Virus record (IMG/VR): IMGVR_UViG_3300030451_002325
Coordinates: 1 to 26,055 of that record
Direction: 5' to 3' (one strand)
DNA length: 26,055 bases
Origin: a virus
The notes beneath the pieces are model-generated. The model did not search any database and had not been told where the DNA came from. It saw nothing but the letters and a program-made list of their open reading frames with translations. A program made the position numbers and the translations under genes. This document shows, in pieces, positions 1,201-20,931 of this stretch. Numbering within the stretch: position 1 is the first letter of the stretch; each line of letters starts with the position of its first letter.

Positions 1201-4200
1201 TCAATAATTTCTAGATCTACCACCTCTATTTCTTCTATTAGAAGATCTATATCCACTTCTTTTTCTAGACTTCTTTTTAGTTTTCTTTTTCTTTGGCGGT
1301 TTTATTTGCCATTCAGGCCAACCTAACAACATTGCTATACTTTCCCACGTCTCAGTATCTTCAGCTAATGCAGCGTCAATATTATTTACTTTGTTGTAAA
1401 CTCTATCAACAGGTAAATTAGTAGTGGCTGATATTACTTTACCTGCAGCTTCATAAGCTGGATTGTCTAAAGCAAAACCTTTTTCATATATTTCTTCTCT
1501 ACGTTTCTTACTATCAAACATCCAAGCAGCTTGTCTAAGTCTAGATATTTTACTACTAATAGGTGGTGAAAATTGTAATAACTTATATATTGAATCTACA
1601 TATTCAGGTCTAGGTCTATCTGATCTTTCATATAAATCCATTAAAAAGTTTTTTGCTACAGATACTGCAGAACCACCTATACCTAAACCTCTAAGTAAAG
1701 AATCAGCCATACCGTTAGCAACTTTTGTATATGTTTTTTCTTTATCTTCGTCTTTTTCTTCATCATCACCAAAACCTAGCATTTGTATACCGGCTTGAAG
1801 TGCGTTGAATATTAAGTTTTGTACGGCTGTGTAATATATTATTTTACTAATGTTACTTTTTCTATCACCTCTACCTGCTACTAAATCTTGATAAGCTCTT
1901 TTAGTTAACCTACCATACTGCATAGGTGTATTAGCAAAAGCTAATAATAATCTACCTAAAGAACTAGCTTGTTGTTGTGATATTTTATCTGGTCTACTAG
2001 ACTGTTGTGACTCTTCAGCTAATTCTCTAAAATCTTGAAAGGCTTGTGCCTCAGCTTCTGTTTGAGTCATACCTTCAGATACGTAGGTATTTATCCTGTT
2101 TCTATAAAACGTAGCACCACCTGAAGCAATAGCAAAACTATCAGCTATCTGCGTGGGTAAAAATCCTTTTTTAAGTATATAGTTAAGTACAGCTCTTGCT
2201 TTATTTTTAGATGTCTTAGCAGCATCAGCTATTTCACTTTCTGATATATTAATTCTAAGTCCGTTACGTCTGTCAACTAAAAAATCAGAGTTCATTAACT
2301 TTTTAAAATCAGACCAATATTGTTTTTGATTAGCAAAAGCTTTACCAGCAGCATATATGTTATTATCATTCCAGTTAATAAAGTTTATTGAAGATATTAA
2401 TTGTAACACAGCTGATCTAGTATTAAAGAACATTATAGCACCAACAGAACCGTTTATCCAGTTTAATAATCTATCGCTAATTCTATTGCTACCTTGTATT
2501 CTATTTTTACCAGTTTTCATTCTGGTTAACATGTTTTCTAGAGCTTCTCTATACTTACTACCGTAAGCAGCTTCTAACTTATTTAAGTTTTCTTTACTAA
2601 ATATAGCATCTACATTTTCTTGCCATTGTTGTAAATACTTAGGTCTTTTAACTGTATTTAATCCTTCAATTAGATCTGTAGTAATAGTTCCAGCTAACCA
2701 ACTATCAGCAGGAGCAGGATAACCATCTTCTTTATTTATTTTAATTAATTCTTCAGCAAAAGTTTTTAGCTTTTCATTTCCTTCTACTATTTTGTTAGCA
2801 TCTGCTAAATCTCTTTTAGATATTCCTGGTATATCCATACCTTGTTTATTCCATATATACATACGAACTACTTGTTCGTTTGTAAAACCATCAAAAGCTT
2901 CTTTTTGTAAATCTTTAGGTACGTCTAGATTTTTCTTTAAAGCCTCAAAGTCTGCCATTAATTGTACTCTTGCAGCTGCTAAACTATCCATTGCTTTAGA
3001 AAAAGGATTAAATAAATTTTCTTTAAAAAACTTCATTTGAGCATCTCCAATTTTACCTTTGCCAAGCAACGGATATATCAAACCTAGCATATCTTCAGCA
3101 GAATAAGGGATCCAAAATTTACCTTTACCTTTTGAAGCTCCTATTTGTTTTGCTCTAGCTTCTGAATAAGTTTTTTCAGCACCTATACCTTTAGTTTCTT
3201 CTATTATCTTATTAAAGTCTTCACTTAAACTTTTACTAAATTTAGGTCTTGCTTGTTGCACTTTAGATTTAACATCTAATACTGACATTGCTTTTTTAAC
3301 TGCCGCTACATTTTGCATAGCGTCGTCTGCGAAATAAAAATCATTATATCCTTCAGCTGCTTTACCAACTAGCCATTGTGCTTTAGCTTTACCTGTAGAA
3401 TTACCTAATCCTATTATATTTTGTTTTTTGAACTCAACACCTTGTGATTTTAAAAACTCATATATAGCTTGTTGAGCTTCTGGAGCTCTAGCAGTTAATA
3501 CAAATAAATCTTCATTACCTCTAGCTGCTTTTATTTTTTTAGCTATATCTAATAATGGCCCAGGTTTACCTTTAGTAACTTTATTAAACTCTGAAAAATC
3601 AAACTTATAACCTTGATCTAGTAGCTCTTTACCTTGACTAGCAAATTCTTCAGCATTTAATTTACCTTTTGTCCCATCAGGAGCTGTATATAGAATATCT
3701 GATTTAGTATAAGCAAGTGTGTCATCAAAATCAAATACTCTAATTTTTTTAACAGGCTGATCTAAAGAGTTAGCTAAATCTAAAGCTTTATCTGTTTTAC
3801 TAAATTGTCTAAGCATATCATCATTAGTCATATCTTTATCAGCTATGACTTGACTATCGTTTGCTTCTTGCTTGTTAGCTTTTATAGCTGCTTGCTCGTC
3901 TTGATAAGCTTGTTTTAAATCCTTACCTTTAACTGATTTTTTAAACGAAGTAACATTACCTTCTTTATCGAACTGAGGAGTATAAACAGTCATTTCAAAA
4001 GGAAACTTACCATAAGTAGTTGGATTATAATATCTATCAAACCTACTTGTAGAATTTTGAGGTATACTAGATTTATATCTTATATTAATAGCATCATCCA
4101 TTAATTCAGGTATAACACTAGTACTAGAATCTTTAAACTTTTGTTTTAACTCAGCTTCTGTAATATCGCCATTAACAAATTGAGCCATGTAGTTTTGCAT

Positions 4201-7200
4201 AACTTTTACAGGTGGGTTATGCTCATACGTATAGTCTGAAGGATTTTTACTTTCACTTAATGCTATACTATCTATAGCGTAAGCAGATCTAAGTATTGCT
4301 GTCATATCTCCAACAGATGCAGCAAAAAACATACCAAGATCGTTTATTGTTATATCAGCTTCAGTTCCTTTGTTTTCTTTATACCATTTTAATTGTCTTA
4401 TAATAGCATTTTGATTACCAGTAGCATCATTATAACTCAAGAGTAAACTTTCATTACTTAATTTACCATCTTTTAAAAATTCTTCTAAGTATTTCTTTTT
4501 AGCAGCTGTAGATTGTGGAGCTCTTTTTGTTACTATTTTTTTACCATCATAAACAAGTTTATTGTTAACAAGCTTTAATTTATTTTCTGTATCAAAAGGC
4601 TTTAATAAAACATTAAAAAACTCTGTTTTATTAGTAAATAAACCAAATCTTAAATCAGATCCTCTACCAGATTTTTTACCTTCAACTAATTTCCATATTC
4701 CATCAACTTGTTTCCACGTGTGATTAGGTAGTCCACCTATTTTAGCTGCGGAAGTAAAAGTTTGTTCAAAGTGCTGTACAACATATTGAAAAAACTCAGC
4801 ATCATTATTAAACTCTTGTTGTAAGTCTCCAAAATACTCACTCATTAAACTTAAATAACCTAATATTTGATCTTCTTTTCTAAAGTTTATACCTTCTTTA
4901 CTTATACCTAAGTTTTCTTTTATTGAATCTACATCTGTTTGTTCATCAAAAGATCTATGTAAATATTCGTTAAGTTGAAATTTATCAGGTTTTTTAGCAT
5001 CGTAAAGTGTTTTAGGTGCTTGATCAATTATGTCTTTCCAAGAATTTACTATTTCGTCTCTTAATTTAAGAGGTTTTGTACCTTTTTTATCATATAAGAA
5101 AGTATCATAAGCTAGTCTAAAAGCAGTGTCAACGGTCATACCTTTAGTAGATAGCAACTCTATAAACATTGGAAGACTAGCTAAATACGTCGCTTTCTGG
5201 TCTTCATTTAATTTGTTAAAAGTTTTACCTAAATTTTCTGCGGCAAATAATTTTTCTTTTTTGCTTTTACTAAACAGTTGAGGTGGTATTCCATCTCTAA
5301 GAGTTCTTAATGATTCTATTGCTTCACCATCTTGTATTAATTGTTCTCTAATTTCTTGACTAGATATTACTTGATCAAAGTTTCTTACAAAACCTTTTAG
5401 TATATCACTTACGCCACCTTTACTAGCTACAACTTTTTGATTCCAGTTAGCTTGATCTTTACCTATTATACCAAATGCTTCTTTAAATTCAACATCTGAT
5501 ATGTTAGGTTTTTTAATTTGCACTTTTAAACCTGGACCTGTTTTAGCTCTTACACTACGTTTATTATAAAATTTTTCTAATAATTTATTTACAACACCCG
5601 TAGCTTTAAATTCAGAAGTATAACCCTCAAGTAAAGAACTTTTAGCTGTGTCTATGTTAGAGTTAATAAACTTTTGTATAGCTAGCATTTCTGGTTTATT
5701 AAGATCAGCATTTTTACTTATCTTTCTAAATATAGATTTACCTAGTTTTTCATCTCTACCTATCATCATAGATACTTCTTCAAGAGCTGTACCTTTTAAT
5801 TGTTTTATATTTTTATTTTTTAATGACTTAGCTTTTGATCTAATAGATTTAACAACTTTATCTACGTCGTAAACTTTAGGTATTTTTTCTCTAACCTTTA
5901 CACCTTTTCTTTCGTCTTGTCTTATTTCTCTTTCAGTTCTAGTGTCTCTCGATGTCTCTTCTTCAGCTGCTATTTGTCTAGTGTCTTCTGTTATTCTAGT
6001 TGTTTGATCTTCAACAGACTTTACACCTAGTCTGCTTGCCAATGAATTAAGCCTTTGCATACCAGTGTTAGCCATGTATCTATCAAACTCAGCTTTTTCT
6101 GGATCAAACTTTTCTGCTATACCTGCTAGTTCACTTTTAGCACTATCTATATAAGATCTTCTAGTAAGCCCAGCTTCTTCTCTAACATTTTGTGGTATAC
6201 CACTAAAAAACTTAGCAGCTGCTCTATTAGCAACCTTATCTATCATTGTTTGTACCTGCGCATCTTCAACACCTGGTACTTCTACCTTTTGAGTTCTAGA
6301 TAATTTTCTATCAGAAACTTCTGCTTCTTCTACGCCTAATTCAGATATAGCTTCACTAAGCTTGCCTTCTTTAATACTTTTATTATACTCTCTTAAAAAA
6401 TTATATACATCTCTACCTGTATCAAACTTTATTTTAGAAAAACCTGCTTTACGTAATATAGGAGTAAAAAAGTCTTTTAACTTAGTAAATATATTTTCAT
6501 TATAAGCTATTTCATTTTTAGCTATAGCATCAGAAAATAAAGTTAATGCTTCATCGGGATTTTTTGTTAAGTAATCATCTGAGTATAATCTATTACCTTT
6601 TTCATCTACTGCTTGCAACTTACTATCAAGAACACTTAACTGTTCATCATTTAATTGATTCCTAAAATCTTGTACTAGCTTAGAAGCGTCTTTACCTTTT
6701 AAAGCTTTGTTAAGTATACCATGTAATAATTCATGACTACCGACAGATACAGCACCTGTTTCTTGAGCAACTTCTTTATTTATATATATAGTGTTTCCTT
6801 GTATAAAACCATCTGACTCTGCGGCTTCTTCACCAAATCTATCTTTAAATTCTTTTTTAGATTTTATTGCTTCTGTTTTTAAACCAAACTTTTTACCTTC
6901 TGACTTTGCAAACTTAACACTTTCTTCTACTTGAGCTTTTCTATCTTTGCCAACTATTTCAGATAATCTAGTATCTATTTCTTCAACTCTTTTTTGTTTG
7001 TCTAATGTTAAGCTTTTTTCATTAACTGATTTTATTTCACCATCTAAAACTTCTTTTTCTTTTAATAATGAAACAACCTCAACTTCAGATTCACCTTTTA
7101 AATTTGCTCTTTTAGTTTTATTAGTAGCTGACTGTGTAGATCTAAAATTCTTTTTAATAGCTTCACCTTGTTCAGGTGTTAATTTAGCAGCTTTAACTTG

Positions 7201-8451
7201 AGTATCTACCTGCTCATCTAGTATTTTAGTAGAATTTTTAATTTGAGATATATTTAAATCAGCTTGAGTTACTTCTGTAGATGGATCAAAAGCTTCAACT
7301 AAATTATTATATTCAGTATTTTTTAGTTGGTTGTTGATTTTTACTCTATCAATATTAGTATTAATATTTAAAATTTGATTAGCCATAGATACAGGAGCAC
7401 TGCCTAAACCAGCAAAAGCTTCAAAACCTATTTCAGCCACGTCCATTTCTTGACCAGCAACAGCTCTACCAGCTACTTCACCTAAGCCACCTCCAGCTAT
7501 TTCTATAGCGCCAGCAGTTCCGGCAGCTACTGCAGGTGCAGCTCTAAATCCTGCTGATGCTATTTTACCACCAACACCTTTTGCTAGTCCCATAGTAGCA
7601 GCTTCAACAGCTCCTATAGCTAAGCCTCTTCCACCTGCTTTTCTTCTTAGTTCACTTAGCTTTTCTTCATTATTTAGTATAGCTCTAACATTTTCAGCAG
7701 TTAAATCACCGCCTACTTCTTCTTGCAGTAACTCAGCAAAAGTTAATCCAGTTTCCATAGCTGTCATACTACCAGTCATCAAACCTGTCACAGCGCCTGG
7801 AATAGCACCTACACCAAATGCAGTCAACCCAACACCAGCTCCAACACCAGCGGCAGCACTACCAGCTAACGCTACTTGTTCAGAAGTTCTAAAAGAATTA
7901 ACTTGACTAGATATAGAACTAACTAACATAGAAGATAATGTAGATGGATTCATCGCAGCGCCTTTTATAAAGCCCCACCAGCCTCCTCCTTCTTCTTCAT
8001 ATATTTTATTAAAAGCCTTCATTTCGTCAGACTCCATATCTTTTTTAGCTAAATTTTTATTAGCTTCTACAAATTTCAGAACCTCTTCATCAGTTGCTTC
8101 GTTGCCTTCATAAAATAAATCTAAACTAGGATCAACAGTTTTAGCTTGTTCAACGCCTTGAGTCCAAGCTCTAGCTATATCTCCAAAAAAATCTGTGACT
8201 GCGTTTTTACCAAAAGTTCTTTCTAGTGCTGTATCTTTTTCACCTGTTTCTTTTACTTCAGGTATTTCAAATAAATCACTTTTCATAATTTTTATTTCAG
8301 GCATGTCATAATATTCTGACATACTTTCTCTAAAATTAGATAAGTTATTATCATCTTGCAAGTCTTTTACAAACACGTCAAATTCAGGCATATCAAAATA
8401 CGGTAAAGCATTATCATATAGCCTTTGTAGAGTTTCTGTTTTTGGCTCCAT
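1201..8451 (-). CDS. Giant virion/ejection protein with metallopeptidase motif and HAD phosphatase domain (T7 gp16 position)
   Basis: 2416 residues, last gene of the virion block, starting at an ATG that overlaps the previous stop (TAATG). Visible parts, in order: two related acidic-helix motifs, YFDMPEFDVFVKDL and YYDMPEIKIMKSDL (18-60); a glycine/alanine-rich hydrophobic region (about 163-232 and 272-356) that could insert into membranes; a charged coiled region (about 365-520); a zinc-metallopeptidase motif HELLH (573-577) with E634 as a possible third ligand; a charged stretch (about 815-870); an EHNPP segment (1410); a HAD phosphatase domain (about 1568-1725) with DFDDT (1574-1578), LTAR (1652-1655), a lysine near GKAKAQ, and YFADD (1706-1710); a long helical C-terminal region (about 1995-2375); GWPEW; and a Lys/Arg-rich tail (about 2380-2416). 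Such multidomain proteins are known as phage large polyvalent or ejected internal proteins. Size and position match T7 gp16, but no lytic transglycosylase motif was recognised. Targets of the enzymes are unknown. Confidence 0.85.
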   Translation of the reverse strand: MEPKTETLQRLYDNALPYFDMPEFDVFVKDLQDDNNLSNFRESMSEYYDMPEIKIMKSDLFEIPEVKETGEKDTALERTFGKNAVTDFFGDIARAWTQGVEQAKTVDPSLDLFYEGNEATDEEVLKFVEANKNLAKKDMESDEMKAFNKIYEEEGGGWWGFIKGAAMNPSTLSSMLVSSISSQVNSFRTSEQVALAGSAAAGVGAGVGLTAFGVGAIPGAVTGLMTGSMTAMETGLTFAELLQEEVGGDLTAENVRAILNNEEKLSELRRKAGGRGLAIGAVEAATMGLAKGVGGKIASAGFRAAPAVAAGTAGAIEIAGGGLGEVAGRAVAGQEMDVAEIGFEAFAGLGSAPVSMANQILNINTNIDRVKINNQLKNTEYNNLVEAFDPSTEVTQADLNISQIKNSTKILDEQVDTQVKAAKLTPEQGEAIKKNFRSTQSATNKTKRANLKGESEVEVVSLLKEKEVLDGEIKSVNEKSLTLDKQKRVEEIDTRLSEIVGKDRKAQVEESVKFAKSEGKKFGLKTEAIKSKKEFKDRFGEEAAESDGFIQGNTIYINKEVAQETGAVSVGSHELLHGILNKALKGKDASKLVQDFRNQLNDEQLSVLDSKLQAVDEKGNRLYSDDYLTKNPDEALTLFSDAIAKNEIAYNENIFTKLKDFFTPILRKAGFSKIKFDTGRDVYNFLREYNKSIKEGKLSEAISELGVEEAEVSDRKLSRTQKVEVPGVEDAQVQTMIDKVANRAAAKFFSGIPQNVREEAGLTRRSYIDSAKSELAGIAEKFDPEKAEFDRYMANTGMQRLNSLASRLGVKSVEDQTTRITEDTRQIAAEEETSRDTRTEREIRQDERKGVKVREKIPKVYDVDKVVKSIRSKAKSLKNKNIKQLKGTALEEVSMMIGRDEKLGKSIFRKISKNADLNKPEMLAIQKFINSNIDTAKSSLLEGYTSEFKATGVVNKLLEKFYNKRSVRAKTGPGLKVQIKKPNISDVEFKEAFGIIGKDQANWNQKVVASKGGVSDILKGFVRNFDQVISSQEIREQLIQDGEAIESLRTLRDGIPPQLFSKSKKEKLFAAENLGKTFNKLNEDQKATYLASLPMFIELLSTKGMTVDTAFRLAYDTFLYDKKGTKPLKLRDEIVNSWKDIIDQAPKTLYDAKKPDKFQLNEYLHRSFDEQTDVDSIKENLGISKEGINFRKEDQILGYLSLMSEYFGDLQQEFNNDAEFFQYVVQHFEQTFTSAAKIGGLPNHTWKQVDGIWKLVEGKKSGRGSDLRFGLFTNKTEFFNVLLKPFDTENKLKLVNNKLVYDGKKIVTKRAPQSTAAKKKYLEEFLKDGKLSNESLLLSYNDATGNQNAIIRQLKWYKENKGTEADITINDLGMFFAASVGDMTAILRSAYAIDSIALSESKNPSDYTYEHNPPVKVMQNYMAQFVNGDITEAELKQKFKDSSTSVIPELMDDAINIRYKSSIPQNSTSRFDRYYNPTTYGKFPFEMTVYTPQFDKEGNVTSFKKSVKGKDLKQAYQDEQAAIKANKQEANDSQVIADKDMTNDDMLRQFSKTDKALDLANSLDQPVKKIRVFDFDDTLAYTKSDILYTAPDGTKGKLNAEEFASQGKELLDQGYKFDFSEFNKVTKGKPGPLLDIAKKIKAARGNEDLFVLTARAPEAQQAIYEFLKSQGVEFKKQNIIGLGNSTGKAKAQWLVGKAAEGYNDFYFADDAMQNVAAVKKAMSVLDVKSKVQQARPKFSKSLSEDFNKIIEETKGIGAEKTYSEARAKQIGASKGKGKFWIPYSAEDMLGLIYPLLGKGKIGDAQMKFFKENLFNPFSKAMDSLAAARVQLMADFEALKKNLDVPKDLQKEAFDGFTNEQVVRMYIWNKQGMDIPGISKRDLADANKIVEGNEKLKTFAEELIKINKEDGYPAPADSWLAGTITTDLIEGLNTVKRPKYLQQWQENVDAIFSKENLNKLEAAYGSKYREALENMLTRMKTGKNRIQGSNRISDRLLNWINGSVGAIMFFNTRSAVLQLISSINFINWNDNNIYAAGKAFANQKQYWSDFKKLMNSDFLVDRRNGLRINISESEIADAAKTSKNKARAVLNYILKKGFLPTQIADSFAIASGGATFYRNRINTYVSEGMTQTEAEAQAFQDFRELAEESQQSSRPDKISQQQASSLGRLLLAFANTPMQYGRLTKRAYQDLVAGRGDRKSNISKIIYYTAVQNLIFNALQAGIQMLGFGDDEEKDEDKEKTYTKVANGMADSLLRGLGIGGSAVSVAKNFLMDLYERSDRPRPEYVDSIYKLLQFSPPISSKISRLRQAAWMFDSKKRREEIYEKGFALDNPAYEAAGKVISATTNLPVDRVYNKVNNIDAALAEDTETWESIAMLLGWPEWQIKPPKKKKTKKKSRKRSGYRSSNRRNRGGRSRNY

Positions 8452-9992
8452 TAATAAGGTTTTCTTTTAGTAGCTTTAGCAGGTTCAGTATTAGCTTGTT
8501 GTTGCTTTTGTTTTGTTGGGTATTTCTTTTTTAATTGCTCTATAGCAGCATCGTTTAATCCTTTGCCTATGGCAAATATTTCCACAACGTCTTCAGGAGT
8601 AGAAGTTTCTTTGTATACATTAGGATTTATATTTCCTTCTTCATCTACTATATAATATATTCTATCATCTTTTAATAAATCAGCATCTTTAAAATCTTCG
8701 TCTTCAGCTAAAATTTGCGCTTTAGTTTTATAGTCTTTTAAACCACCACTATAAAACTCATATCTGTTTATTATTTCTTGTGGCTTACCAACATACTGAT
8801 CAGCTTCTATTGTCATAGCTTGATAATCGTCTCCATAAGTTGCTATTTGCTCTTTAGTTTCTAGTCTTAACACATTTTCTTTTTTAGTACTAGAAGCTTG
8901 AGATGTAGGAGGTTGATACTTTCTTCTACCAATTATAGTTTCTATACCATCAGCAGCTGCATTGTCTTCTAAAGCTTTATTAGCTAGAAATAAAGCAGCT
9001 TCATCTCTTTGTTTTTGAGTTTCAGCTTTTATTTGCTCTGCTGTAGCGTTAGGTGGAAATACCATCCAGTCAGTATCTTTGTTCATCATATCAGCCCAAA
9101 CACTTTTCATACGTTCCTCATCATCTAGTATACCTTTAAACTGATTAGACTTAACCATTGATTGAGCAGCTTTTTGTCTTTGCTCTGTAGTCATTGATTT
9201 TGTAGTAACCTCTTGATCGCCTACTATCTTAGTATTAAATGTAACTAAGTCAGCATTGTCTTTACCTCCTGGTTTTACAGTATTATCATAAACAGCTTTA
9301 AGTGACTCAGATAAATCAGGCACTGTTTGAAAATACTCAATACCACTATTTTCTAACTGTAATAACTCATTAACATTTACCATAGCAGCTTCTTTACCAT
9401 CTCCTGCAGGTCTAAATAAAACTAACTCACCATTATTATCAACTAAGTTTATATTGCCACCTTGTTGTAATTCTAATAAAACCTCTTGTTGAGCAGTAGG
9501 TACTCTAGAACTTATAGCGCCAGGTTGTCCAGGTGGTATTTTTAAAGCTTCGGCTAATCTTTTAGTTTGTGCCATGATAGGTACAACAGCATCTCTAAAT
9601 TGTGTAACTTGATTATTTAAATAAGACAAAGCTCTATTACCCTCCATCTGAGATACAGTACCATCTTTAATACCTTGTTTTATTTTAAAATATTTTTCAG
9701 TTTGAGCATCAAAGAAGTTGTTCATATTTTGATCAAAGGTACCATAGCCAGTTTCTTTTATGCCTGCTACTTTATCAAATCTAGCTAGCTGCTCTTTATT
9801 TTGTTCCGCAAATAGTCTTTCTTGTTTAGCTCTTTCCATTTTATTCTTAGCGACTATGCTAGCTACCATTTGATCCATTTCTTGAGCTATGTCAGGAGCT
9901 CTATTTATATAGTTATCAAATTGTTGATTAACTATTAACTGTGGATTTTCATACGCTCCACCTCTTCTTCTTCTTTGATATTTAACTGCCAT
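8451..9992 (-). CDS. Internal virion protein, T7 gp15 position
   Basis: 513 residues, mostly helical and polar, without signal peptide or membrane segment. The N-terminus is very basic (KYQRRRRGG, residues 4-12), then a long glutamine-, glutamate- and lysine-rich helical stretch (about 20-160) and a mixed domain (about 170-500). The C-terminus is again basic (KATKRKPY). It lies between a gp14-like protein and the giant ejected protein and overlaps the latter's start by one base. In T7 this is the place of gp15, part of the channel that carries DNA across the cell envelope. The assignment rests on order, size and helical composition; no sequence motif proves it. The ATG start is preceded only by AT-rich sequence. 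Confidence 0.65.
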   Translation of the reverse strand: MAVKYQRRRRGGAYENPQLIVNQQFDNYINRAPDIAQEMDQMVASIVAKNKMERAKQERLFAEQNKEQLARFDKVAGIKETGYGTFDQNMNNFFDAQTEKYFKIKQGIKDGTVSQMEGNRALSYLNNQVTQFRDAVVPIMAQTKRLAEALKIPPGQPGAISSRVPTAQQEVLLELQQGGNINLVDNNGELVLFRPAGDGKEAAMVNVNELLQLENSGIEYFQTVPDLSESLKAVYDNTVKPGGKDNADLVTFNTKIVGDQEVTTKSMTTEQRQKAAQSMVKSNQFKGILDDEERMKSVWADMMNKDTDWMVFPPNATAEQIKAETQKQRDEAALFLANKALEDNAAADGIETIIGRRKYQPPTSQASSTKKENVLRLETKEQIATYGDDYQAMTIEADQYVGKPQEIINRYEFYSGGLKDYKTKAQILAEDEDFKDADLLKDDRIYYIVDEEGNINPNVYKETSTPEDVVEIFAIGKGLNDAAIEQLKKKYPTKQKQQQANTEPAKATKRKPY

Positions 9993-10002
9993 AATCTATA
10001 TT

Positions 10003-10668
10003 TTATACAAATAATTTACCAGCATTAGCACCTGTGTTACCTTGTAATCCTCCAACTAAACTACCAGCTAAACCACCTACAGCACCTACCATTTGTTGAT
10101 TAGCAGCTACTTTAGCATTTTGAGCTTGCTGTGATAATATATTAGCATTGTCTTGCTCTACTTGTAATCTATTTAACTTAGCAACATCTCTATCTTCTTG
10201 AGCTTGGAATTTAAAAGCTTCACCTGATGCTTTTAGTTGAGCAACTTGATTAGCTCCTTCAGCTCTAGCTTCGTTATTAGCTTGTTCTTGTTTCTGTATA
10301 TCAGCAGATATACCACGCTTAGATTCTAAAGCAGCTCTTGCCAAAGCAGTTGCGCCACCTGATCCGCCACCAGTTTGCATAATAGTATCTAAAGTATTAG
10401 CTAAAGCAATATCAGCCTCTTCAGCTTGAAATCTTGAAGCTTGTGTAGCAACTCCAATATTTTCAAACTCATTAGCCATGTTTTCATATGGATTAATAAC
10501 TTCTTGTCTGTTCTTTTCAAGTTCTTCTAAAGCTAGTTTTTTATCTTTAGCAATTTTATCTTGTTTCTTCTGTTGTTCTTTAGCTTGGTTTTTCTGCATT
10601 TGAGCACTAACTAACTTAGTAGTTGCCGCTACACCTGCTGCTATTGCTAAACTTGTTGCTACTGCCAT
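10003..10668 (-). CDS. Internal virion protein, T7 gp14-like
   Basis: 221 residues. A hydrophobic alanine/valine-rich segment near the N-terminus (about 2-21) and a glycine-rich hydrophobic segment near the C-terminus (about 193-208) flank a long, alanine-, glutamine- and charge-rich alpha-helical middle (about 22-190). A glycine-rich break, GGGSGG, lies near 100. This plan (short hydrophobic end plus helical, Q/A-rich body) is what is known for gp14-type core proteins of T7-like phages, which are ejected and span the outer membrane. The ATG start is one base after the stop region of the GNAT-like gene, with only AT-rich leader. Its downstream partners are the gp15- and gp16-position genes. 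Similarity is by architecture and order. Confidence 0.75.
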   Translation of the reverse strand: MAVATSLAIAAGVAATTKLVSAQMQKNQAKEQQKKQDKIAKDKKLALEELEKNRQEVINPYENMANEFENIGVATQASRFQAEEADIALANTLDTIMQTGGGSGGATALARAALESKRGISADIQKQEQANNEARAEGANQVAQLKASGEAFKFQAQEDRDVAKLNRLQVEQDNANILSQQAQNAKVAANQQMVGAVGGLAGSLVGGLQGNTGANAGKLFV

Positions 10669-10669
10669 A

Positions 10670-11071
10670 TTATAATACTTTTGTTAATTCATATGAGGGC
10701 TTTTTATCCTTATTCCACCCTAGTTTTTCATGTGTTTCAATTAATCCTTTATGTTGCATTACTGCAAATAAATATTTATATTCAAGTGATTTAACAAGAT
10801 TTTCAGCACCTGTTATAAGAAGCTCTATAGCTTGTTTTCTGTCAGCTTCTCTGTATTTAGGATTAGATACTATCCATTCCAATAAAGCTGTCTTAGAATT
10901 AGTTAAATAGATAAATCCAGCTACTATAGGCTTATTATTTTTTTCAACTATTAAACCACCTTTACCATTTTCTGGTAAAAAATCTTTTATTGGAGCTTGC
11001 CATTTAGGCCAATTACTCCACCAAGATACTAATGTATCCCAGTCTTTATCTGTAAGTCTACGTATATTCAA
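10670..11071 (-). CDS. GNAT-fold acetyltransferase-like protein, T7 gp13-like
   Basis: 133 residues, proposed to start at TTG (11071), since no ATG or GTG occurs near the N-terminus; the first internal ATG would delete most of the fold. From TTG the protein begins MNIRRLTDKDW, the usual first strand of GNAT proteins. GGLIVEKNNKPIVAGFIYLTN resembles the central beta-hairpin, and the ALLEWIVSNPKYR segment followed by a helix resembles the acetyl-CoA-binding strand and loop. A classical Q/RxxGxG/A loop is not obvious, so catalysis is doubtful. T7 gp13 has this fold, is needed for correct virion cores, and lies just before gp14, as here. The frame is the same as that of the preceding gene, whose stop (TAA) is only two codons upstream, so a stop read-through fusion is a possible alternative. 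Confidence 0.7.
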   Translation of the reverse strand: MNIRRLTDKDWDTLVSWWSNWPKWQAPIKDFLPENGKGGLIVEKNNKPIVAGFIYLTNSKTALLEWIVSNPKYREADRKQAIELLITGAENLVKSLEYKYLFAVMQHKGLIETHEKLGWNKDKKPSYELTKVL

Positions 11072-11077
11072 TTTAAT

Positions 11078-12871
11078 TTAATTAGACGATGTTACTTGAT
11101 TAGTGAAAGCTGCAAATATTTGTTTTTGCCCACCTGCATCAGTGCTAGTGTCTGTAGATAATTTAACTGTAGCTACATAACCTTTAATACCACTTACTGG
11201 ATAACCACCATAAGCATCAGGACCAAATACAACTTCACCAGCTCTAGCTACATTATTACTTTTGAGATTAGCTACGTATTTACCTTCTTTTAAATGGAAA
11301 CCAGCTCTAAATATGGGCTCTGTTAATGCCGCAGGATATTCATTTCCCTGGCTATCGTAAGCACCTTCATAGTAACTATTTACTATTACACTACTATCAT
11401 TATAATTTACATATGATGGATTAGCTGTATTAGGATTAACATAGTTGCTAGGCACCTCTTGTAATCCTTGTAAGTCAGATATAAAACTTTCAGCTTGCCA
11501 ACCATTGCTACCTTCATAACCAATAGTTAAAAAGTTTTTATTAATGTTTGGTGTAGGATTAAATACAAAAGTTATTGATGATTTTGAAGATGTGCCATAA
11601 AATGTATTTCTATTATTACCGCCACCTTCAAAATAGTGTTGGTATATTTCACCTGAGTTAGTTGAGAAAAAAGTATTTTTTAAACTAAACATTTCACCTG
11701 GTCTATATGTATAAAAAGTAGGCCAACCTAAAACACTTTCATCAAAAGCTAAAGTATGATAATCACTTTGGGATTCTTGTTGTAAAGATACAGTATAGTT
11801 TCTATCATATATGTCCCAAGCACCTTGTATTTTATCTTTTATATAAGTTCTAAAAGTAATAACAGTTCCATTAGTTATAGGATTATTAGTGTTGTCATTA
11901 TAGTGACTTGTTAAATAAACATAGTCAGCTTCTACAGCTGTAACATATATTGGATATTCAACACCAGCTACTATTAAAGCAGCACCTGTAGGTATACCGC
12001 TAGACAAAGTAGTTAATCTAACCCACTTAGGATCAGGTAAACTACCGCTTGGTGTAGAAAACTGTCCATTAGAAGTCTTAACAAAATCAACAGGTTGTTG
12101 TAGTTCGCTAATATTTTTTAATTGATCTCTAAAAAAATTAGACATACCATACTCAGATATTTCTGTCATACCATCATACGATAATCTCATTATAGAACCT
12201 CTATCTTTATCAGCAAAATATTTTCTAAATCCGTATACAGCAAATGATTCTGGATTTTTACTAATACCAAATTCACCTTTATATGGAGTTAATTGACCTA
12301 TAACAACACCTTGAGGTAACGTTTGTGTACCACCTTCAGAAGTATACAAAGTATCTTTATCAATCAAAGCTCTATTTACTTTATCTTCTTGAAATACTAT
12401 TAAGTTAGTATCTTCAGCATAAAGTTTTTGAACACTACCCTGGTGAGGATCAACAGCTCTAGTTATTGCTTCACCCACAGAAAACACGTTAGTATCATTT
12501 AACCCAGTTCTAGAATTATAAACACCTGAATATATTAAAGCATTTGGTCTATATTCTTGAGAGTTATTATCTTCTTTTAAATAAGCTTTTGCGCCATAAT
12601 CAGTAGAAACATTGTTAAACCCACCTTGATACCTTGCTTCTTCTATAAACCAGTTTTCTACTTCATCGTAATTACTATTTTCACTATCACCTGCTCCAGA
12701 AGGAAATTGTGGAAAATTAGTTGGATTCCAAGGTAGACCAGGAAAATTAGAGCCATAACCTCCTCTACTTGGGTCAGGTTGACCTGCTGTTGGATTAGGC
12801 AAGCTACCTACATATATTGTCTTTTTTAACCAAAAAGAGTTGTAATATTTAACATTTAATCTATATCCCAT
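11078..12871 (-). CDS. Tail nozzle/stabilisation protein, second part (P22 gp10-like)
   Basis: 597 residues, beta-rich, no membrane segments. After a proline/glycine-rich N-terminus (about 25-60) comes a conserved-looking block: FIEEARYQGGFN, ALIYSGVYNSRTGLN, ITRAVDPHQGSVQKLYAED, LIVFQEDKVNRALIDKD, and GEFGISKNPESFAVYG with YFADKDRGSIMRLS. From memory these belong to the P22 gp10-like (tail stabilisation or nozzle) proteins of crAss-like and marine podoviruses, in which beta-propeller blades form the lower part of the short tail. It starts two bases after the stop of the 1156-residue gene (TAA TA ATG). Together the two seem to supply segments that I recall within one longer chain. The C-terminal third is beta-rich and unrecognised. 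It may include a contact to tail fibres. Confidence 0.7.
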   Translation of the reverse strand: MGYRLNVKYYNSFWLKKTIYVGSLPNPTAGQPDPSRGGYGSNFPGLPWNPTNFPQFPSGAGDSENSNYDEVENWFIEEARYQGGFNNVSTDYGAKAYLKEDNNSQEYRPNALIYSGVYNSRTGLNDTNVFSVGEAITRAVDPHQGSVQKLYAEDTNLIVFQEDKVNRALIDKDTLYTSEGGTQTLPQGVVIGQLTPYKGEFGISKNPESFAVYGFRKYFADKDRGSIMRLSYDGMTEISEYGMSNFFRDQLKNISELQQPVDFVKTSNGQFSTPSGSLPDPKWVRLTTLSSGIPTGAALIVAGVEYPIYVTAVEADYVYLTSHYNDNTNNPITNGTVITFRTYIKDKIQGAWDIYDRNYTVSLQQESQSDYHTLAFDESVLGWPTFYTYRPGEMFSLKNTFFSTNSGEIYQHYFEGGGNNRNTFYGTSSKSSITFVFNPTPNINKNFLTIGYEGSNGWQAESFISDLQGLQEVPSNYVNPNTANPSYVNYNDSSVIVNSYYEGAYDSQGNEYPAALTEPIFRAGFHLKEGKYVANLKSNNVARAGEVVFGPDAYGGYPVSGIKGYVATVKLSTDTSTDAGGQKQIFAAFTNQVTSSN

Positions 12872-12873
12872 TA

Positions 12874-15800
12874 TTATTGTATTTGAAAATATGCAGAATA
12901 AAATGTTTTAATACCTATAGGATTAGCATCAACAGCATAAACTTTTAATAAATATATACCTACACCTGGAGCTCCTGTATCATCATTTCTACTACCATAG
13001 TATTGCAAATCATTTAAACTTGAAGTAACTTTTATAGTAGTTATTGGCGTTACTGTAGACAGTTGAAATATAACTCTAGAAGCTACAGATCCGTCTTGAA
13101 CTAATACAGTTTCTTCTGTGTTAACGTTTCCTACAGTACTTCCACTACCATTAACTATATCAGTAAACATATTAAAACTACCTAATGATGATCCTGGTTG
13201 AGGATTACTAGCAGAAGGATTAAAAGTAAATATAGGAAATGGATTATCAATAGCTCCTTGTTGACCTGATGGAAAACCACTTTCACCTGGATATAAATAT
13301 GCTTTTGTACCAACACCATTTGTAGGTATAGTAAAAGTAGGTGCAACATTACTTAATAACATCTCGTGATTAGATATGTTTACAGCGCCGCTCGAGTTGG
13401 TTGATGTTATTTTAAAATTAAAAGTTCTAAAATTAGCATCAGAACCATAATAAACACTGGCATCTGTAGGATTGTATCTAACTCTATAGGAGGGAGCAGC
13501 TGGACTTTCTTCTAGTTGAAACATATTTACCACAGCGTTATTACCATTAGTTACTTCCATAGTAGCTGTAGCACCTGCTATAGCACTACCAGTATCATCA
13601 ATTATATCAAAAGTATCTGAAACCCAAGCGCTTATACTTGGAGTTAAAGACTCTAGCATGTTAAAATTAGGCTCGCTTATACCTACAGGTAAACCTGCTG
13701 TGCCGTTTGCTATTTCATTATTTAAATCAGATATTAAACCCGCAGAACTACTTTCCCAAAATATATCTATTTTAGATACTACAGGATCTGTTTCAAAAAC
13801 ATTTAATTCTTTTGAAAAAGTGTTTTGTTCTTGAGCAATAGGAGAAAAACCTACTAAAAAATTAGTAGCTAATTGTGCTACAAAAGGATTAGTAGATGCC
13901 TCTAAATATAAAGGATCTACATAGTCTGTCCCATCATTAGGATAAGAAGATGTGCTAACATTTGCGTCATTTCTATCTGCAGTCCATTTACCTAAATCAT
14001 TAAAAGATATTATAGAAGTAACAGTAAATTCATTTAATTCTCTTATTTGAGAAGAGCTAGAACTAGATAATGTTGGTTTATAAGCTGTAGCGTTACTAGC
14101 ACTTATTATATATCTAGTAACTACTCTAGGGTAAAGTAAAGTTTCACTACCATATATTTCTTCTGTTGGCCCAACATCTGCTAATTCTTTTGGAACTTTA
14201 TTTATATTATCGCCATATAAAACTATATTTGTAGTAGTGTTAGCTCTTTGGTATGTAGGTAAATTACCTGCACCAGTTTTAGCATTAAAAGTTATTTTAC
14301 CTGAACATGCTCCTGGAACATAAACATTGTAGTATTCTTGTTCTTTTTGTTGTACAACTATTTTATAGCTATAATACCCTAATGGATTATTTACTGAAAA
14401 AGTACCTGGGTAAGTACTTGTTTTATTTACTGGAATTGTATTATTAAACAATATATTTAAATTATTACCTGGCCAATTTAAAGTACTACTTAAATTTTCA
14501 TATGGAGCGTATATAGAAGACGACTCTCCAATAGCTACAGAAGAACTAGGTTTTCTTAATATAACATTAGATGATCTACCATATCTATCGACTAGTACCA
14601 CTCCAACTTTGTAAGATCTATTTTGCTTTAAAGTATGATTAGGATATTCTTTTTGGTCAAATACAGTAGAACTATTATCAGGCTTATCTGTAACACTTAT
14701 ATCAAACTGTAAAAAATCAGGCGACTCATTTTTTTCTATAAAGTTACCGTATATAACTCTATTACCACTAACAGCTTGTGCTAAAGCTCTTATAGGTACT
14801 TTATCATGAACTCTAGTAGCATCTGCATCTGGTAAAACTTTAAATGGTTTTTCAGATTTGTAATCGTATTCATAGAATTTATCTGTCATACCGGATCCAA
14901 AACCATTAACGTCATTTACATCTATTTCATCTACAACTTTAATAGCTAAACCATCAGACTCTTTTAATAAAATTTGTATAGTTTCTACTTTAAAAAACTT
15001 TTTAAAAGTCTGTCTTTGAGACTGGACGCCAGTTACTAAGTTAGGCATAGGTACTCTTAACTTAATTGAAGTAACTTGGTTTTCCATTATTTTATTAACA
15101 CCACTTTCAGCTATATCTTTTTCATCTCTTTTCATTAAGTTAGGCCCACTAGCTTGGTAAGGACTATCTAGTATATATCCAAATTGTTTTGGGACAAAAG
15201 CATGTTGAGTAAACGGTGCCATTAATGAGTATTCACCATCATCATATTTAAATCTATAACTGAATCTTATAAATTTATCTCTCAAATACTCTTTATCACC
15301 AGAATAACTAGCGTTATATAAAGGATTTTGTCTTTCAAATTGTAAAACATCACCTGCAACAAAAGGGTACCTAGTAGGCACAGGTGGACCACTAGTACCT
15401 CCTTTATATGTAACAGCAGCTTCTAAAGCAGCGGTGTAAGATTGAGCAGCTGTATTATTAGAGTCAATAGGATATTTATAAGTAAAAGTAGCAGGTGCAT
15501 TACTAGTAAAACTTGTCATTAAAAAATAACCTAACTCAGGAAAATTTAAATTTTTAAATCTAACAGTGTTATTTAAAGAAGCAGCAAGTTGAGGTATATT
15601 AGCGTTACATATAACTTGACCAGGCGTACCAGCTGAGCTAAATATACCTGTTGAATTAGCGGGTAAATATTCACTTGTTTCATCTATTAAACCAGAAATC
15701 CAAGCTCCACCTACTTTATGTATAAAATTTATAGGTTCTACAGGTGAAAATTTAGCTACTGATATATGATCTTCAGTCGTGTAATAAGGCTCAGGACTAG

Positions 15801-16344
15801 TAGCAGAAGCTCCTATTGCTGTTTGTACATTTATTTTCCTAGGTTGATTTCTATTATCAGTAAAAAACAACAAATCCTCTATCATATCTACACCAAGTAT
15901 AGGATGAGTTTTAGAAAAATTTAAAAATGAACCTTCAACTAATTTGTCAAATTTTGGTACGTTACCGTTAGATGCTGTAGGTCCTTCTATATAAGCTATA
16001 ACACATACAGCACTTGTTTCTGTTCTACCAGAAGCAGTGTCTACATCACCTACAGCTCTAGCATCTAGTTGAGTTGGCGAACCATCAGAGTGATTAGTAG
16101 CAAATATAAATATTCTATCTCTGTCAGTATCAACATACTTACCTATTATTTCTACACCTGTGCCAAAATTAAAGTTAGAATATAAATTGTTACCTATAAT
16201 ATTTTCAACAACGCCTTCGTCAGGACCTTCACTTTTGTTAACAGATATATTTCTTCCATCTCTGTATTCACCAGGAGGTAAAAGTCTTTCATCTAAGTCT
16301 TTATTCATTTTAGACTTGACGAATACATTTCTTACTTCTGCCAT
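12874..16344 (-). CDS. Tail nozzle/stabilisation protein, first part (P22 gp10-like), with Ig-like C-terminal region
   Basis: 1156 residues. The N-terminus carries MNKDLDERLLPPGEYRDGRN followed by VENIIGN, a hallmark I associate with P22 gp10-like nozzle proteins of short-tailed phages. Further landmarks are LFFTDNRNQPRKINVQ (about 165), SYKVGVVLVDRYGRSSNVIL (about 580), VLYGDNINKVPKEL (about 710) and LNVFETDPVVSKIDIFWESS (about 845). After about residue 880 the chain becomes Ser/Thr/Asn-rich and beta-rich, with Ig- or cadherin-like strand patterns up to the end. No membrane segment or signal peptide. It begins one base after the ring-protein stop and ends two bases before its partner gene. 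Likely role: extension of the tail tube below the ring protein. The C-terminal region may be exposed on the virion surface. Confidence 0.75.
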   Translation of the reverse strand: MAEVRNVFVKSKMNKDLDERLLPPGEYRDGRNISVNKSEGPDEGVVENIIGNNLYSNFNFGTGVEIIGKYVDTDRDRIFIFATNHSDGSPTQLDARAVGDVDTASGRTETSAVCVIAYIEGPTASNGNVPKFDKLVEGSFLNFSKTHPILGVDMIEDLLFFTDNRNQPRKINVQTAIGASATSPEPYYTTEDHISVAKFSPVEPINFIHKVGGAWISGLIDETSEYLPANSTGIFSSAGTPGQVICNANIPQLAASLNNTVRFKNLNFPELGYFLMTSFTSNAPATFTYKYPIDSNNTAAQSYTAALEAAVTYKGGTSGPPVPTRYPFVAGDVLQFERQNPLYNASYSGDKEYLRDKFIRFSYRFKYDDGEYSLMAPFTQHAFVPKQFGYILDSPYQASGPNLMKRDEKDIAESGVNKIMENQVTSIKLRVPMPNLVTGVQSQRQTFKKFFKVETIQILLKESDGLAIKVVDEIDVNDVNGFGSGMTDKFYEYDYKSEKPFKVLPDADATRVHDKVPIRALAQAVSGNRVIYGNFIEKNESPDFLQFDISVTDKPDNSSTVFDQKEYPNHTLKQNRSYKVGVVLVDRYGRSSNVILRKPSSSVAIGESSSIYAPYENLSSTLNWPGNNLNILFNNTIPVNKTSTYPGTFSVNNPLGYYSYKIVVQQKEQEYYNVYVPGACSGKITFNAKTGAGNLPTYQRANTTTNIVLYGDNINKVPKELADVGPTEEIYGSETLLYPRVVTRYIISASNATAYKPTLSSSSSSQIRELNEFTVTSIISFNDLGKWTADRNDANVSTSSYPNDGTDYVDPLYLEASTNPFVAQLATNFLVGFSPIAQEQNTFSKELNVFETDPVVSKIDIFWESSSAGLISDLNNEIANGTAGLPVGISEPNFNMLESLTPSISAWVSDTFDIIDDTGSAIAGATATMEVTNGNNAVVNMFQLEESPAAPSYRVRYNPTDASVYYGSDANFRTFNFKITSTNSSGAVNISNHEMLLSNVAPTFTIPTNGVGTKAYLYPGESGFPSGQQGAIDNPFPIFTFNPSASNPQPGSSLGSFNMFTDIVNGSGSTVGNVNTEETVLVQDGSVASRVIFQLSTVTPITTIKVTSSLNDLQYYGSRNDDTGAPGVGIYLLKVYAVDANPIGIKTFYSAYFQIQ

Positions 16345-19461: not shown

Positions 19462-20931
19462 TTAAGCTCCTTTAAATAACACGAAGTTATTAGCAGCTTG
19501 AGTAACTAAACATCTTTCAGATAAGAAATTAACTCTCATTGTATCTAAATCAGTAGTATAAGCACCACCAACAGATCCAGTGATCCATGTTTTATATCTT
19601 CTATCTTCAGTTTCAGAAGCTCTATATCTTACGTGTAAGAAAGGACGTCTGATATTAACACCCATCATTTGGTCATATACTGTAGTAGTTCCAGCAGGAA
19701 TTAATACACCATCGATTTCTTTATCTAAACCTCTTGTTGTAGCGTCATTTAAGTATTTCCAGTCAGTTTTATAGAAGTCATAAGAACCTCTTCTAAATCC
19801 TGAAAATCCAAAGTTAAGTGCCATTTCTTCTTCGTTGTCAAAAAGACCATAAGAAGCAGAAGCAGTAGAAGCATAACCTCCACCTGCCATAGCAGCAATC
19901 ATATCGTCAAAATCAAGAGCAGTAGATCTTGATAAGAATAACATGTTTTCTTCAATTGCACCTTGCTTATCTAATTGCTTAAGGATTTCATCAAAATCTC
20001 CTAATGCACCAGCTCCAGGAGCAGCAGCACCAGCAAATCCAGAATAAATATTACCTCTTGCTTCAATAGCAGCAAATAAACCTTGTGTACCTTTTATAGC
20101 TTGTGCACTACCAGGAGTAAAAGCAGCAGGGAAATTAGCAGCGTTAGCATTAATTTCACTTTCAACCATTGCCATCTCTAAGTAATCATCAAATCTTAAT
20201 CTAGTTTCAGATTCAGCTTTTAAGTACCACATGTACCCTGAAGTACCTGCTTCGGTAGCAACTTCTATCCAACCAATTTGAGCAGTATCAGATCCACTTA
20301 TTTCGAAATTATCTTTCATAATAATTGGACTGTTCTCAAAAGTTGTAGGAACAGGAGTAATAGCACCTTGCATTCCGTCACTTCCTTTTGGAAATTCAGA
20401 ACCATATACAAATAAGCTACACTGACTACCAGTAATAGCAGCAGCTAAAGCAGCTCCTTCATAAGCATGACACTTTAATGTATAACCATCAGTAGTATTA
20501 TTATCCGTATTAGAAACAACTAAAGCTTTAAGTGTTACTAATCCAGTAGCATCAGAAATTAAAATTGTATTACCAACTCTAATACCTGAACTAGCAGGAT
20601 TATTACCTTTAGTAATAGTTACTCTAAAGTTTGGAAAATTATGACCACCAAGAGCTACAGCACAATTGTCATAAGCTACGTGTAATCTATTTTGTTCAGT
20701 CCAAATAACTTGGTCTGATGTCATAGGCATTTCAGCGCCTACCATTCTTAAGAATCCTGATAACGTCCTGTTACCATATCTTTCTACTTCCTGCTCATAA
20801 AGCTCAGGTAAGTATTGTTGAGTCCAAGTCGAAAAGTTAGCATCGTGGAAGTCAATAAAATTGTCTTGAACGATTTGCTTTTTCGGCATTGGAACGATTG
20901 AGGCTGGAAAAGCCCCGCCAGATAAACTCAT
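19462..20931 (-). CDS. Major capsid protein, HK97 fold likely
   Basis: 489 residues. The N-terminal region (FHDANFSTWTQQYLPELYEQ, 28-47) is followed by RYGNRTLSGFLRMVGAEMPM and IWTEQ. The C-terminal block RRPFLHVRYRASETEDRRYK, then GSVGGAYTTDLDTMRVNFLSER and AANNFVLFKGA, matches what I recall for capsid proteins of crAss-like and marine Bacteroidota podoviruses. The middle is alanine- and glycine-rich with beta strands, as expected for the A and P domains. Position directly after the scaffold gene supports this. There is no obvious N-terminal cleaved delta domain, so the separate upstream scaffold probably serves instead. Starts at ATG (MSLSGGAFPAS). Expected to be the most abundant virion protein; a strong terminator follows one small gene later. 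Confidence 0.88.
   Translation of the reverse strand: MSLSGGAFPASIVPMPKKQIVQDNFIDFHDANFSTWTQQYLPELYEQEVERYGNRTLSGFLRMVGAEMPMTSDQVIWTEQNRLHVAYDNCAVALGGHNFPNFRVTITKGNNPASSGIRVGNTILISDATGLVTLKALVVSNTDNNTTDGYTLKCHAYEGAALAAAITGSQCSLFVYGSEFPKGSDGMQGAITPVPTTFENSPIIMKDNFEISGSDTAQIGWIEVATEAGTSGYMWYLKAESETRLRFDDYLEMAMVESEINANAANFPAAFTPGSAQAIKGTQGLFAAIEARGNIYSGFAGAAAPGAGALGDFDEILKQLDKQGAIEENMLFLSRSTALDFDDMIAAMAGGGYASTASASYGLFDNEEEMALNFGFSGFRRGSYDFYKTDWKYLNDATTRGLDKEIDGVLIPAGTTTVYDQMMGVNIRRPFLHVRYRASETEDRRYKTWITGSVGGAYTTDLDTMRVNFLSERCLVTQAANNFVLFKGA

Follow-up and report, generated by a model that had tools for sequence, protein, structure and literature searches.

The DNA analysed here, called the window below, is a 26,055-base virus record that probably represents a fragment, and one gene takes up 27.8% of it. 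The question raised by this locus is what so large a protein carries, and whether it acts from within the virus particle or as an ordinary product of the infected cell. A first-pass annotation, which put the gene at more than a quarter of the window, had read its product as an ejected protein that combines a membrane-crossing device with cargo enzymes. The gene, referred to here as the giant, is a single uninterrupted frame of 2416 codons (8451..1201, minus strand), and its ATG overlaps the stop codon of the preceding 513-aa gene as TAATG. Several disparate domains are joined in the one large polypeptide: a HAD domain, a domain with a peptidase motif, and helical modules. The giant and its neighbours are as follows.

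24596-26053, minus: terminase (TerL), matching phrog_6681 at 1e-110
22184-24595, minus: portal, matching P22_portal and phrog_6547
19462-20931, minus: capsid, from a weak Crass_capsid match
11078..16344, minus: crass-type muzzle protein in two ORFs (12874-16344 and 11078-12871), Pfam crAss_MUZ_C at 1.2e-9
10670..11071, minus: 133-aa acetyltransferase-like protein between muzzle and ejection genes, from position, neighbour annotation and reading of the sequence
10003..10668, minus: 221-aa probable ejection protein, homologous to phi38:1 gp99 (annotated as structural) and elemo gp20
8451..9992, minus: 513-aa probable cargo/ejection protein, from position only, which is that of crAss001 gp46 and T7 gp15
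1201..8451, minus: giant late gene, 2416 aa, 270 kDa, pI 8.6

The minus-strand order is terminase, portal, an acidic 406-aa protein, capsid, ring-like structural proteins, the split muzzle, the 133-aa, 221-aa and 513-aa proteins and the giant, which closes the late module and lies among virion genes. The plus-strand ORFs at 1-929, one of which weakly matches ribonucleotide reductase, are convergent with it. The 133-aa ORF occupies the same place as the 'N-terminal acetyltransferase' (GNAT) CDS of MW202828 and as T7 gp13. The muzzle is one gene in elemo, phi38:1 and MW202828 and is split in the window and in Panino. Named phages with related portals have Flavobacterium, Cellulophaga, Maribacter and Tenacibaculum as hosts, which makes a Bacteroidota host likely; the window comes from a marine phage that probably infects such a host.

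Along the giant itself, the following features were placed.

8227..8451, minus: acidic N-terminus with two YDMPE-type repeats, residues 1-75, from sequence
7432..7974, minus: Gly/Ala-rich helical region, weakly hydrophobic, residues 160-340, from composition and HMM
6886..7017, minus: long predicted helix, residues 479-522, from the AlphaFold2 model
6352..6894, minus: predicted zincin-like metallopeptidase domain, residues 520-700, from motif, alignment and AlphaFold2, with HELLH at 6721-6735
6295..6306, minus: junction motif KLSR, residues 716-719, at the end of the peptidase module, from the motif scan
5266..5277, minus: junction motif variant LFSK, residues 1059-1062, from the motif scan
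4210..4224, minus: EHNPP segment, residues 1410-1414, in an alpha/beta region, from sequence and model
3796..3807, minus: junction motif QFSK, residues 1549-1552, just before the HAD domain, from the motif scan
3247..3759, minus: HAD phosphatase domain, residues 1565-1735, from motifs, Pfam, PHROG and model, with DFDDT at 3718-3732
3667..3681, minus: HAD site at which relatives carry a nested P-loop kinase, about residues 1591-1595, kinase absent here, from profile and tree
3232..3243, minus: junction motif KFSK, residues 1737-1740, at the HAD/C-terminal border, from the motif scan
1312..3246, minus: conserved all-helical C-terminal module, residues 1736-2380 (~650 residues), the shared part of the family, from the relatives' alignment and the model
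1204..1311, minus: Lys/Arg-rich C-terminal tail, residues 2381-2416, pI 12, from sequence

All of the elements listed in the first-pass annotation are present and in the order it gave, from two acidic repeats (LPYFDMPEFDVFVKDL and SEYYDMPEIKIMKSDL, both within the first 60 residues) through a coiled region, here the helix at 479-522, and the EHNPP segment at 1410 to a helical region and basic tail. Residues 1-160 have a net charge of -20, and the acidic N-terminus is kept in close relatives only. The proposed membrane segments held up in part: the Gly/Ala-rich region is there (31-40% G+A across residues 160-340), but its highest 19-residue hydropathy (KD19) is just 1.65, so that it is only marginal as a membrane segment, a weakly hydrophobic helical region and not a classic transmembrane helix. 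The corresponding peak has a median of 1.45 in 159 dereplicated relatives. Residues 68-439 match phrog_32588 (8.6e-62), and the N-terminal region is homologous to the giant of MW202828 (HMM, E=7.7e-22). Searches of named phages by tblastn with the whole giant and with its N-terminal part gave no match, nor did Foldseek return a useful one for the N-terminal 1000 residues. AlphaFold2 models were made in two pieces, residues 61-1060 (mean pLDDT 79) and 1365-2416 (pLDDT 74). Small Pfam matches to DUF6861 and TusA were sub-threshold and were set aside.

The metallopeptidase motif is borne out by conservation. H573, E574 and H577 of the HELLH sequence and the downstream E634 are invariant in 61 aligned sequences, and HExxH is kept in 151 of the 159 representatives. 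In the AlphaFold2 model, strands at 525-529, 548-552 and 554-558 are followed by the HELLH helix (570-583) and by a helix at 633-644 that carries E634, a topology that matches the one given for the zincin-like MPTases of polyvalent proteins: three strands, the HEXXH helix and a following Glu helix (Iyer et al. 2017, PMC5512222). The same domain is found in the elemo giant (HMM E=1.4e-8). A Foldseek search of the PDB with the model of residues 61-1060 returned no zincin, so the assignment of a zincin fold rests on motif and topology; a PDB sequence search with the peptidase profile gave chance matches only. With its motif, third ligand and predicted topology, the giant likely carries a zinc peptidase.

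What this peptidase might cut is suggested by a short motif, [KRQM][FLY]S[KR]. KLSR, QFSK and KFSK sit at the BLAST module borders 720, 1545 and 1736, which had been drawn before the motif was spotted. The 159 representatives contain it 380 times, where local shuffles give 130, while the other ORFs at the same loci are only mildly enriched (138 vs 110 expected). FSK is found in 141 distinct contexts where ~72 are expected; other orders of F, S and K are near expectation, except KFS, which overlaps the motif. It is dense in the 60 residues preceding the HAD strand and directly past the HAD end, and a scan of the first 150 residues of HAD found none. BLAST breakpoints away from the C-terminal border number 422, and 10.4% of them have the motif within 15 residues, compared with 2.5% at random and 0-1.9% for six control motifs; these counts are not a clean probability because breakpoints and HAD flanks partly share ancestry and are not all independent. 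The sequence KFSKS is encoded by 23 different DNA strings, an indication that it is kept as protein and an argument against a scar at the DNA level. The idea that the motif marks all large proteins at this position was rejected, as it is essentially absent from the MW202828, Panino and elemo giants. We consider it a candidate processing or linker signal at module junctions, and found no junction signal described for polyvalent proteins in the open-access literature.

Cleavage of the giant by its own peptidase at [KR]FSK-type junctions is a tentative reading, one that we put forward without holding it probable. An alternative, with a probability somewhat short of even, makes the peptidase an effector that cuts host proteins and not the giant, and the FSK-type motif a flexible linker or recombination scar. 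It is compatible with ejection and competes with processing only; both peptidase roles are allowed by Iyer et al., and the N4 vRNAP, with its MPTase, is packaged uncut (PMC5512222). A mere linker or scar is harder to reconcile with a motif that clusters at module borders well above random and control levels, that avoids the beginning of HAD and that is only mildly enriched in neighbouring ORFs, and a scar in particular with the variety of KFSKS codons.

The second enzyme stands on firmer ground. The HAD motifs DFDDT (1574-1578; DxDDT), LTAR, K and DD, which make up the full set I-IV, are all invariant in 64 aligned sequences, and the domain scores above the Pfam cut-off for DUF2608, a HAD-clan family. 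It has a weak profile match to the PHROG polynucleotide kinase family phrog_415 (1.5e-6), and mammalian PNKP is the best match to it, but a weak one (E=0.21). In the model of residues 1365-2416 the HAD domain is alpha/beta, and its best meaningful PDB matches in Foldseek are class C acid phosphatases (prob 0.94 but E=0.76), the closest fold being the e(P4) acid phosphatase of H. influenzae, solved with NMN and AMP. The complete motifs support a phosphatase. Of the cargo enzymes claimed earlier, this one stands on its full motif set, and the peptidase is likely, with no zincin among its Foldseek matches.

In some relatives the HAD domain is interrupted by ~200 residues. This was first seen in five relatives, whose inserts match AAA_33 (3e-11) and Zeta_toxin (1e-9). 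When a profile of the insert was searched, 17 ORFs matched; in 16 of these the kinase sits at one HAD position (after profile position 47, window residue ~1591), and in the remaining one it lies elsewhere. The window giant has HAD alone and no 5'-kinase domain; three kinase-bearing members lie inside its own 19-member HAD clade. The HAD tree requires 6 label changes for the kinase, 4 of them forced by well supported branches; the nested kinase has been gained or lost 4-6 times on this tree. Among PDB sequences, 4gp7-type chains match the insert best (E 1e-4; deposited as 'Metallophosphoesterase'), followed by shikimate kinase, PezT and zeta toxin, and T4 PNK; 4gp7 is the kinase domain of C. 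thermocellum Pnkp. Like the T4 and C. thermocellum Pnkp enzymes, some of the window's relatives have a phosphatase and a P-loop kinase on one chain; the two are in tandem there, whereas the kinase is nested within HAD in the relatives and missing from the window copy. Carriers of the nested Pnkp/zeta-like kinase include L012:13232-14404, L010:13811-15148, L109, L227, L258, L134, L157 and L280. In L099|3953-12034 the same kinase lies outside HAD, at residues 793-981, and L127, L073 and L193 carry different inserts, 65-128 aa long, at the HAD site of the nested kinase.

That a kinase recurs within the phosphatase hints at a single substrate class common to both, such as nucleic-acid ends, and the pairing in relatives points to a nucleic-acid-end or nucleotide substrate. 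A rival on the substrate only is that the HAD domain is a nucleotidase acting on small nucleotides or signalling molecules and not on RNA or DNA ends. This has perhaps one chance in three or slightly better: a reasonable possibility that we do not favour, to which the NMN and AMP complexes of e(P4) and the want of a T4-type RNA ligase in most relatives lend weight, and against which stand the match to the PHROG polynucleotide kinase family and the polynucleotide kinases among the best PDB matches of the nested kinase. Of 31 long contigs of relatives, nearly all lack a T4-type RNA ligase, although the PF09511 control matched nowhere and that half of the search is uninformative. With ligase families nearly absent, complete tRNA repair is not supported, and a tRNA-repair reading with a phage RNA ligase was rejected.

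The C-terminal module is the constant part of the family, while peptidase, HAD and other upstream modules come and go. A pattern scan found it encoded by at least 588 viral contigs; genome collections yielded just 11 contigs with it, all from MAGs and not one from an isolate. In a set of 232 complete ORFs that include the module, the distance from stop to stop has a median of 2704 aa, and where relatives have enough upstream flank the muzzle is kept in 90/117 and the 221-aa gene in 84/117. The basic tail is strongly so in 118 of 159 relatives. The BFVD structural neighbours of the C-terminal half are first uncultured giants (E down to 1e-64) and next numerous proteins whose names read ART-PolyVal or large polyvalent protein associated (LPD), at ~1e-8 to 1e-5 with 800-1100 columns aligned. 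The Panino giant, which occupies the same genomic place, has an LPD38 match (E 1.8e-5); the Pfam LPD families gave no match to the window giant, and HHalign gives a weak profile link between its C-terminal module and LPD38 (E 0.018-0.084). A PDB sequence search with the C-terminal profile yielded chance matches only. We read the module as a probable divergent polyvalent C-terminal domain. Two giants in named records are probably misnamed: that of PP540027 (28228-33717), labelled 'tRNA methyltransferase', which has an LPD38 match, and that of MW202828 (741-12320), labelled 'reticulocyte binding/rhoptry protein'.

The giant resembles the LPD38-bearing phage type of polyvalent protein (Iyer et al. 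2017, PMC5512222) in its very large size, its several enzymes, its zincin-like MPTase with HEXXH and a downstream Glu helix, its place among virion genes and its predicted helical C-terminus, and differs in that LPD38 was not detected in it above cut-off. The main text of that paper mentions a solo zeta-toxin-like kinase and neither a HAD phosphatase nor a nested kinase ('phosphatase' and 'haloacid' each have 0 occurrences). In open-access publications we found nothing on the nested kinase/HAD arrangement or the junction motif. Polyvalent ejected proteins are a known class and are predicted to be common; the phosphatase with a recurrently nested kinase and the junction motif may be new. The first-pass annotation had recognised neither this class nor the modular family, the nested kinase of relatives or the junction motif.

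Known virion proteins occupy the same place in other phages. In crAss001 the muzzle gp44 is followed by the cargo proteins gp45 (C1), gp46 (C2) and gp47, and gp45, gp46 and gp47 (262 kDa) were found in virions by mass spectrometry (PMC10172136). Besides its position after muzzle, C1 and C2, gp47 shares with the giant a near-equal size and HExxH, but it has no detectable sequence homology to it, is annotated as an RNAP subunit and lacks HAD; a 60-residue BLAST match between the giant's C-terminus and gp47 was rejected as homology, being unsupported by hhalign (E 0.25-0.35). The HEAFH of gp47 (L289:26120-33145) lies at residue 2157. Cellulophaga phi18:3 gp123 (1935 aa) and phi38:1 gp101 are likewise the last genes of the corresponding module, the former annotated as structural from experimental MS/MS on virions and the latter by similarity. 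Neither has reliable sequence homology to the giant; the muzzle and small cargo genes, tested with phi38:1, are homologous to the window's. The window's homology to these systems lies in its muzzle and 221-aa protein and in two parts of the giant, the N-terminal region and the peptidase domain; the MW202828 and elemo giants, which match these two parts respectively, sit at the same genomic place. T7 has the same gene order, with nozzle and proteins of 138, 196, 747 and 1318 aa (gp16); the pattern common to both is nozzle, ~135 aa, ~200 aa, 500-750 aa and then the giant. The comparison with gp16 made earlier holds for position and not for sequence: T7 gp13-16 have no sequence or profile match in the window, and the gp16 transglycosylase domain was not found in the giant. 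A membrane-crossing device is no more than suggested, given the lack of a strong transmembrane helix and of gp16 homology, and the crassvirus model assigns channel formation to the smaller C1/C2 proteins.

From these analogies, the gene order and the TAATG coupling to the preceding probable cargo gene, we think it quite probable that the giant is a polyvalent-type cargo protein, packed in the virion and injected with the DNA; its ejection at infection is likely. It could instead be purely structural, a gp16-like channel protein in which peptidase and HAD are relics or structural spacers. The C-terminal block is indeed the part most widely kept in relatives, and the positional counterparts phi38:1 gp101 and phi19:3 gp129 lack HExxH and HAD motifs; yet every alignment of the domains shows invariant catalytic residues, and a P-loop kinase has repeatedly been placed in HAD with the HAD motifs still intact, which makes this reading improbable. 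That the giant is an early cytoplasmic enzyme merely adjoining structural genes is very improbable indeed, given its strand, its place at the end of the late module, its start overlapping the previous stop, its convergence with the plus-strand genes and the mass spectrometry of its counterparts crAss001 gp47 and phi18:3 gp123.

As virion cargo, the giant would be made late, with capsid and tail proteins, packaged alongside the two smaller ejection proteins and pushed out by way of portal and muzzle, either before the DNA or together with it. Its acidic N-terminal and Gly/Ala-rich parts, together with the conserved helical block at the C-terminus, would form a chassis for packaging and ejection, and the middle an exchangeable payload of zinc peptidase and HAD phosphatase, to which some relatives add the nested Pnkp-like kinase. 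The peptidase would probably act within the cell or the capsid, most simply by freeing modules through cuts at [KR]FSK-type junctions. The fullest version, an injected polyprotein whose in-chain zinc peptidase frees swappable effector modules at [KRQM][FLY]S[KR], among them the phosphatase with its recurrently inserted kinase, is speculative and, taken whole, rather unlikely. Were it true, the phage would deliver from the virion an enzyme for end-healing or for nucleotides, active ahead of all phage gene expression.

The giant belongs to a very large, uncultured family with a strongly variable cargo payload. This family provides a candidate junction signal that nature has replicated many times, as well as a phosphatase/kinase pair whose delivery by the particle is probable, and it makes self-processing by an in-chain metallopeptidase, a long-standing proposal, directly testable by mass spectrometry.
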